NCBI RefSeq assembly: GCF_004214815.1
Contig: NZ_CP035926.1
Location: forward strand, 1,054,001-1,118,000
Reading direction: 5' to 3'
Length of the DNA: 64,000 nt
Source: Aliarcobacter thereius LMG 24486
GTDB taxonomy: Bacteria > Campylobacterota > Campylobacteria > Campylobacterales > Arcobacteraceae
The translations under genes and the position numbers were made by a program. Positions 62,427 to 64,000 of the stretch are shown piece after piece; the first letter of the stretch is position 1; each line of letters starts with the position of its first letter. Under the pieces are notes generated by a model. It made no database searches. It saw only the letters and a list, made by a program, of their open reading frames with translations, and was not told the origin of the DNA.

Positions 62427-62463
62427 GCCAAAGGCAAAAATAATCGGGTCATTGTTATTGAAT
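62427..62463. repeat. Degenerate terminal CRISPR repeat
   Basis: The last 22 bases are identical to the repeat consensus (AATCGGGTCATTGTTATTGA then AT). The first 15 are unrelated and form, with the adjoining bases, the small palindrome TTTGCC-AAA-GGCAAA. A degenerate terminal repeat usually marks the leader-distal end. Confidence 0.8.
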
Positions 62464-64000
62464 AGTCTTAAAGGTTGCAGATTATTTCGCGAAAAGCGTC
62501 TTAATCCCCTTAAATCGGGTCATTGTTATTGAATTTATAGACACAATCTATAATAAGCTTTTTGAAATAGGTCTTAATCCCCTTAAATCGGGTCATTGTT
62601 ATTGAATATATAAACTTTGGCTCATATGCTAACAACGAGGATGGTCTTAATCCCCTTAAATCGGGTCATTGTTATTGAATAACTTTATGATAGTTGGTAA
62701 CGACATTTGGCTTCAAGTCTTAATCCCCTTAAATCGGGTCATTGTTATTGAATGTGGTTGGAAGAGATATTTGGCTTCAAGCCAAAGTTAAAGTCTTAAT
62801 CCCCTTAAATCGGGTCATTGTTATTGAATCAGTTTGTGAAATGTTAGATATAATTTGGTTATTATCGTCTTAATCCCCTTAAATCGGGTCATTGTTATTG
62901 AATCTTCTAAATGATACTCAGTATGTCGTAGAAATCTACGAAGTCTTAATCCCCTTAAATCGGGTCATTGTTATTGAATTTATTAACGCATCTTCGACAT
63001 CAAAAAATTTTTTTGATACATTGTCTTAATCCCCTTAAATCGGGTCATTGTTATTGAATCTAGAGAAGAGACAATAAGGCTTGAAGAAAAATTTGAGTCT
63101 TAATCCCCTTAAATCGGGTCATTGTTATTGAATTTTTTCTCAAATATAATTAACGAGGATGCTTACGAGCAAAGTCTTAATCCCCTTAAATCGGGTCATT
63201 GTTATTGAATAAGTTTGATAGAAAAACTTTTGAGGCAAAGTTCAGAACGTCTTAATCCCCTTAAATCGGGTCATTGTTATTGAATGTATTAGAGCAAATA
63301 GCTAAAATTAATTTAAGCATGTCTTAATCCCCTTAAATCGGGTCATTGTTATTGAATAGAATTGGGAAGAACAGATTGCATTGCCCCTGATACAAAGTCT
63401 TAATCCCCTTAAATCGGGTCATTGTTATTGAATGTATGCAACAACTTGCATATCAAAAAGGATTCTTCGTCTTAATCCCCTTAAATCGGGTCATTGTTAT
63501 TGAATCCACAAAAACATAGGATAAATTCTATAAAAGTAGTCTTAATCCCCTTAAATCGGGTCATTGTTATTGAATAAGCAAATAGCTTACGCATTATCTT
63601 TTTCATAGTTGTCTTAATCCCCTTAAATCGGGTCATTGTTATTGAATTCAAAAAGTGTTAAAGATGAGGATTTATTCTCTTGTCTTAATCCCCTTAAATC
63701 GGGTCATTGTTATTGAATAAGATTTATATCTTCTTTTAAAACTGCTGGATGAAGTCTTAATCCCCTTAAATCGGGTCATTGTTATTGAATAGAACTAAAA
63801 GAAATAAAAGAGGATTTATATCTTGTCTTAATCCCCTTAAATCGGGTCATTGTTATTGAATCGTAAAAGAAGCAAACTTCTTTTATGGAACAGATGTGTC
63901 TTAATCCCCTTAAATCGGGTCATTGTTATTGAATTTTCTGGCTTCCCTATATCTTCTGAGATTGTGGAGGGAAATGTCTTAATCCCCTTAAATCGGGTCA
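62427..64000. CRISPR. CRISPR array: 20 full repeats, one truncated by window end, one degenerate
   Basis: The repeat unit is 37 bases, beginning GTCTTAATCCCCTTAAATCG and ending GGTCATTGTTATTGAAT, with no base differences among full copies. Full repeats start at 62498, 62571, 62644, 62717, 62793, 62867, 62943, 63023, 63097, 63174, 63249, 63321, 63397, 63469, 63539, 63611, 63682, 63754, 63825 and 63898; one cut by the window starts at 63976. The 21 spacers are 33-43 bases and all different. The length scatter is more usual for type III than for type I-E/F or II. No cas gene is visible, so type is inference. The degenerate repeat at the left suggests the leader and cas genes lie to the right, beyond 64000. 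The TATTGAAT end of the plus-strand repeat resembles the ATTGAAAC-type crRNA handle and argues the opposite, so I leave direction open. Many spacers contain hairpins. Confidence 0.97.

Follow-up and report, generated by a model that had tools for sequence, protein, structure and literature searches.

Enrichment of hairpins in the spacers of a type III-D CRISPR array beside RT-Cas1 in Aliarcobacter thereius

The closest experimental parallels to the array described here come from the type III-A systems of Streptococcus thermophilus and Staphylococcus (Zhang et al., Aviram et al., reviewed in PMC9048733), in which spacer uptake in the absence of a reverse transcriptase (RT) is enriched at structure-forming sequences and on the coding strand, while the type II system of the same host shows no such preference. 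These are experimental hot spots obtained with unfused Cas1, and the review, from which the experimental structure preference is taken here, records the suggestion that a single strand folded into a hairpin provides the duplex on which adaptation acts (PMC9048733). The closest enzyme is the RT-Cas1/Cas2 of Marinomonas mediterranea, which acquires spacers from both RNA and DNA and in which the RT-Cas1 fusion is additionally joined to Cas6 in a type III-B system (PMC11014452). RT-linked arrays have also been surveyed, and their spacers are mostly untraceable (PMC5513706).

We analyzed a window of 64,000 nucleotides of the A. thereius LMG 24486 genome, the right end of which enters a CRISPR array adjoining an RT-Cas1 gene. 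As in the type III-A experiments, the spacers of this array are rich in hairpins and read mainly in coding sense, apparently as true fragments of foreign and host genes; unlike in those experiments, the hairpins lie inside natural spacers and at their ends, and they occur in RT-Cas1 type III-D as well as in unfused-Cas1 arrays. The RT-Cas1 fusion is shared with Marinomonas, whereas Cas6 is separate here and the effector is of type III-D. Few protospacers could be identified, as for the surveyed RT-linked arrays, but in contrast to those, a conjugative-type element in a congener could be matched to two of the spacers, and the host rpsU gene to one insert. No earlier report of hairpin-rich natural spacers was found in the open-access literature, which is a weak sign of novelty.

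The array and its cas operon

The array starts at window position 62427 and runs to 64897 on the window scale (L017:4897, where coordinate p of L017 is window position p+60000), about 900 bases past the window end. It comprises 33 repeats and 32 usable spacers, 21 in the window and 11 beyond position 64000. The 37-nt repeats are accompanied by unique spacers and a leader, and the repeat is unchanged throughout except for the degenerate left (trailer-end) copy and one interrupted unit. Since the degenerate repeat lies at the left, the space separating the array from cas2 at the right is an AT-rich leader, and the repeat has GGGGATTAAGAC as its 3′ end, array transcription probably runs from right to left, with the repeats then reading ATTCAATAACAATGACCCGATTTAAGGGGATTAAGAC. 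The leader (L017:4930-5310) contains several copies of a GTTCGCAAAC-like motif in both orientations, which are possible binding sites.

Past the leader, the minus strand encodes Cas2, the RT-Cas1 fusion, a Csx1-type CARF-HEPN protein and all parts of a type III-D effector, together with a separate Cas6. RT-Cas1 is a single 768-aa ORF in which the RVT_1 domain spans residues 91-299 (PF00078, E=5e-38) and the Cas1 domain residues 451-720 (PF01867, E=2e-57), and a FADD motif is readable around residue 247; the neighboring Cas2 matches with E=8e-25. The effector genes match the PADLOC models for Cas10d (6e-157), Csx19 (4e-40), Cas7_IIId (3e-170 and 5e-161) and Cas5_IIId (2e-134). An earlier note on the window had suggested looking for RT-Cas1 or RT genes to its right, and the fusion is found immediately beyond the window together with Cas2. 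The same note had raised the alternative of a non-CRISPR array with structured RNA inserts, which the 33 repeats and the complete type III-D operon speak against. The array belongs to a CRISPR system of type III-D whose Cas1 is fused to an RT. Separately, a 189-kb plasmid of Arcobacter cloacae (NZ_CP053834; L104, G402:C2) carries an RT-like gene close to an array whose repeat, ATTCAAATACAAAGACCCGATTTAAGGGGATTAAGAC, is almost identical.

Table 1. Array features and individual spacers, in window coordinates
Feature	Position	Strand	Remark
In-window part of array: degenerate distal repeat, then 37-nt repeats and 21 spacers	62427..64000	-	crRNA-sense repeat ATTCAATAACAATGACCCGATTTAAGGGGATTAAGAC
Degenerate terminal repeat, trailer end	62427..62463	-	consensus matched by right 22 nt only
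Spacer, 7-bp hairpin 62535-62553	62535..62570	.	hairpin abuts spacer end
Spacer containing ATTTGGCTTCAA in frame (DIWLQ)	62681..62716	.	ATTTGGCTTCAA common to next spacer; frame read by eye
Spacer, hairpin 62770-62786	62754..62792	.	7 bp, loop 3
Spacer, 6-bp hairpin 62926-62941	62904..62942	.	1 nt off spacer end
Spacer, 8-bp hairpin 62999-63017	62980..63022	.	
Spacer, 6-bp hairpin 63211-63229	63211..63248	.	hairpin abuts spacer end
Spacer, 7-bp hairpin 63435-63452	63434..63468	.	
Spacer, terminal hairpin 63719-63732	63719..63753	.	GATTTATATCTT common, in frame, to 3′ end of neighbor spacer
Spacer ending in GATTTATATCTT	63791..63824	.	same hairpin sequence on its other side
Spacer, longest stem, 63864-63885	63862..63897	.	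9 bp, loop 4
Spacer, outer stem TTCCCT/AGGGAA	63935..63975	.	encloses ATCT/AGAT

Hairpin excess in this array and across CRISPR types

We defined a hairpin spacer as one with a perfect stem of 7 bp or more and a loop of 3-8 nt, and compared the array with 1000 sets of dinucleotide shuffles and of same-length fragments of its own genome. Eight of the 32 spacers contain such a hairpin, where 0.54 (shuffles) or 0.99 (own-genome fragments) are expected, and none of the 1000 sets reached eight. The inverted repeats listed in the earlier note are all present where it placed them, and its count of five in-window spacers among 21 with perfect stems of 7 bp or longer is exact (0.28 and 0.67 expected; P<0.001 for both nulls). 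The 11 spacers beyond the window, which served as a held-out set, repeat the excess with three hairpin spacers against 0.26 and 0.32 expected (P=0.001 and 0.003). The enrichment that the note had proposed is therefore real, exceeding both nulls and recurring in held-out spacers, and the shuffled controls, on which the proposal could have failed, fall far below what is observed. Within the list of stems, the excess at 7 bp and above stands, while the 4-5 bp and imperfect stems taken singly are near chance. The folding z averages about −0.75, which is only moderate, and roughly one spacer in three accounts for the excess. Chance or base composition, with a handful of fortuitous palindromes in an AT-rich array, would account for the single short AT-rich stems of 4-5 bp, which are at chance level, but as an explanation of the whole it is refuted by the held-out replication, the two nulls and group P values down to 2e-9, and we regard it as practically eliminated.

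For comparison, arrays were gathered beside RT-Cas1 genes and beside unfused Cas1 genes of the same order; among the latter, type III-A status rests on Cas10/Csm1 identified by Pfam in two loci (L292, L294) and on repeat and Cas1 similarity in the other loci. Hairpin spacers make up 1.2% of type I/II spacers of the same order (22/1796), 3.0% in type III-A arrays with unfused Cas1 (10/331; at the first separation of this group, 10 against 3.2 expected in 311 spacers) and 6.3% in the RT-Cas1 arrays of Campylobacterota with the A. thereius array left out (32/504). The RT-Cas1 arrays of Bacteroidota and others stand at 1.5% (6/396), 1.6-fold over shuffles, an excess that is not clear. Group P values, which are somewhat optimistic because spacers within one array are not fully independent, are 2e-9 for RT-Cas1 Campylobacterota against type I/II, 0.023 for unfused type III-A against type I/II, and 0.035 for RT-Cas1 Campylobacterota against unfused type III. 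The A. thereius array itself, at 25% (8/32), lies about 4-fold above its RT-Cas1 relatives and differs from them at P=0.001, a value to be read knowing that this array was picked for looking extreme.

In the natural arrays of unfused type III-A and of RT-Cas1 Campylobacterota, spacers are enriched for self-complementarity relative to type I/II, in the direction of a type III structure preference. The premise of the earlier note that ordinary adaptation does not select palindromes agrees with the type I/II controls, but for type III adaptation a preference for structure is reported (PMC9048733). An apparent specificity for RT arose from pooling the unfused type III-A arrays with type I/II and was superseded once they were separated; RT-Cas1 as the sole cause of the excess was weakened when the unfused-Cas1 type III-A arrays proved to be enriched. 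Because those arrays are enriched at 3.0% and the RT-Cas1 arrays outside Campylobacterota, at 1.5%, are not, an RT is neither necessary nor sufficient for the hairpin excess. Unfused-Cas1 type III arrays (L300, L308, L312) contain striking terminal palindromes, such as TTGGACGCTTTT-gagaa-AAAAGCGTCCAA, a 12-bp stem starting from the first spacer base, and two short Campylobacter arrays (L342, L350) have stems of at least 7 bp in 2/3 and 2/5 of their spacers.

Source, strand and position of the hairpins

Codon usage assigns the mRNA sense to 26 of 31 A. thereius spacers (26:5), so that the crRNA is antisense. The other RT-Cas1 arrays of the phylum show a similar bias (353:116), as do the unfused type III arrays (235:76); both lie near 75%, against about 50% in a mixed, mainly type I/II control set (1030:957). 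Hairpin spacers are coding-sense at 43:16, like all spacers of these arrays. This count bears on the idea, also raised in the earlier note, that intrinsic terminators, origins or further specialized dyads supply the spacers. Such elements are favored in type III-A uptake by S. thermophilus according to the review (PMC9048733), yet here the hairpin spacers are as coding-sense as the rest, and a T-rich tail on either strand accompanies just 2/11 hairpins of this array and 2/64 in other RT-Cas1 arrays, which speaks against such a source and leaves it very improbable.

No exact protospacer of any hairpin spacer was found. Searches of phage and plasmid collections with the contiguous array returned hits of E about 0.7-10 or other arrays and no convincing protospacer, and degenerate protein-motif patterns of four hairpin spacers had no match in viral_contigs. 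Homologues were located. In a congener, a conjugative-type element has a gene that the spacer at 62535..62570 matches in sense orientation (89% over 35 nt), and the spacer's hairpin is fully present in the homologue as an 8-bp stem (TTATAGAT-AAA-ATCTATAA). The spacer at 63434..63468 matches, also in sense, a gene of the same element encoding ..MQQLAYQKGF.. (94% over 34 nt), with 11/11 residues identical in a second congener; its hairpin is partly present in the homologue, and the single arm difference is synonymous. The two matches are 5.7 kb apart in the congener, on an element that carries a TraG-like protein, a DnaG-type primase and a recombinase-like nuclease. In a Campylobacter RT-Cas1 array, one hairpin spacer has a sense match to a conserved chromosomal gene bearing most of the hairpin. 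Three hairpin spacers thus have homologues whose sequence continues on both sides of the hairpin, which places these hairpins within the natural coding sequence of the source genes. A further candidate, the spacer CCTATGTCTCAAAGAGTTGAATCATGAAGATTCAA as a copy of frdB, was dropped since the host's own frdB does not match.

To locate the hairpins within spacers, stems of at least 6 bp were counted, again leaving the A. thereius array out of the RT-Cas1 Campylobacterota set. In that set the outer pair falls on the terminal base 16 times against 2.8 expected, one base in 7 times against 1.8, and six or more bases in 13 times against 8.1; internal hairpins are enriched as well. Unfused type III-A arrays give 7 against 1.7 at the terminal base and 4 against 1.2 one base in, and type I/II arrays are near expectation at all positions (at the terminal base, 14 against 9.5), their end clustering being weak or absent. 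The excess is strongest at the spacer ends, and both ends bear hairpins.

An excess that peaks at spacer ends is what snap-back synthesis could leave, in which the 3′ end of an RNA or cDNA folds back and the RT copies it, creating a palindrome absent from the source. A terminal arm produced by snap-back would be the inner arm copied in reverse. In 44 codons, the terminal arms score as ordinary in-frame coding sequence, at 0.08 ± 0.18 bits per codon where control ends give −0.07 ± 0.04; simulated snap-back copies score −0.42 ± 0.05, a difference of P=0.001. The homologues of three hairpin spacers carry all or most of the hairpin with both flanks matching, internal hairpins are enriched, and arrays without an RT show the same pattern. 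Marinomonas RT-Cas1 performs snap-back synthesis in vitro (PMC11014452), and the hairpins seen here differ from its products. The coding scores of the arms and the mapped homologues rule against snap-back products as the source, and we consider this origin very unlikely.

The hairpin excess could also reflect selection after uptake, if crRNAs with a terminal hairpin are more stable or effective and hence persist. The excess is confined to arrays serving type III effectors in Campylobacterota, and a sense bias is expected from selecting mRNA targets; against this, hairpins are found at both ends although the 5′ and 3′ ends of a crRNA are treated differently, and the type III arrays of Bacteroidota show no excess. 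We view such selection as an improbable cause, though less so than snap-back.

Neighboring spacers of the A. thereius array add detail. Two of them share GATTTATATCTT in frame, one closing and the other opening with the hairpin, as if one hairpin had bounded both. The common ATTTGGCTTCAA of two adjacent spacers (window 62681-62792) suggests repeated uptake at a hairpin from the same gene family. Beyond the window, a 32-nt insert at L017:4453-4555 (64453-64555 on the window scale) is identical to the host rpsU leader and start (G000:C1, L102). It is flanked by a 36-bp direct duplication made up of 28 nt of spacer and 8 nt of repeat, close to the 37-nt repeat length that normal integration duplicates, and is an apparent off-register integration by Cas1.

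Such an insert, which copies 32 nt exactly from a gene whose transcription is expected to be strong, would fit an RNA-specific route in which RT-Cas1 favors reverse transcription and integration of hairpin-bounded fragments from mRNA decay; exonucleases would stall at the hairpin base, and the array would record stable pieces of mRNA. The higher frequency in RT-Cas1 Campylobacterota than in unfused type III arrays (6.3% against 3.0%), the clustering at both spacer ends and the sense bias point the same way. Unfused-Cas1 type III arrays, however, have the same excess, end clustering and sense bias, the RT-Cas1 arrays of other phyla are without excess, and the RNA-strand signature does not exceed the coding background. 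We had also considered a folding asymmetry of the mRNA strand as proof of RNA origin, and set it aside because a small asymmetry is found in ordinary coding fragments too. We hold this route as a possible but minority explanation, and give similarly tentative standing to its specific form, in which the RT-Cas1 of Campylobacterota takes up folded pieces of mRNA severed at the hairpin base and hairpin recognition is intrinsic to RNA-derived acquisition. If true, natural arrays would be a record of RNA structure and decay.

A proposed preference for folded strands and what it would mean

The explanation we favor, at somewhat better than even confidence, is that type III adaptation prefers single strands that fold, as reported, and does so unusually strongly in this array. 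The counts given above agree with such a preference as a trait of natural arrays, RT-Cas1 systems included. Type III Cas1-Cas2 would take up single-stranded nucleic acid, which could be mRNA or its cDNA made by the RT, or ssDNA exposed by transcription or conjugation. Since a self-folded strand would supply the duplex that Cas1-Cas2 needs, we propose that fragments bearing hairpins, cut near the hairpin base, would be captured more often. Two observations count against this explanation. A clear excess is absent from the RT-Cas1 arrays of Bacteroidota and others (6/396), and for that reason the preference is not universal in type III; and the 4-fold elevation of the A. thereius array over its relatives is not accounted for by it.

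The hairpin imprint would bear on what type III adaptation modules, and RT-Cas1 in particular, use as substrate. The imprint is graded from type I/II through type III to the RT-Cas1 arrays of one phylum and is sited at spacer ends, and the A. thereius array is the strongest example found. With it, genome sequence alone would suffice to test whether folded single strands are the substrate, and transcript recorders built on RT-Cas1 would be expected to over-sample structured RNA.
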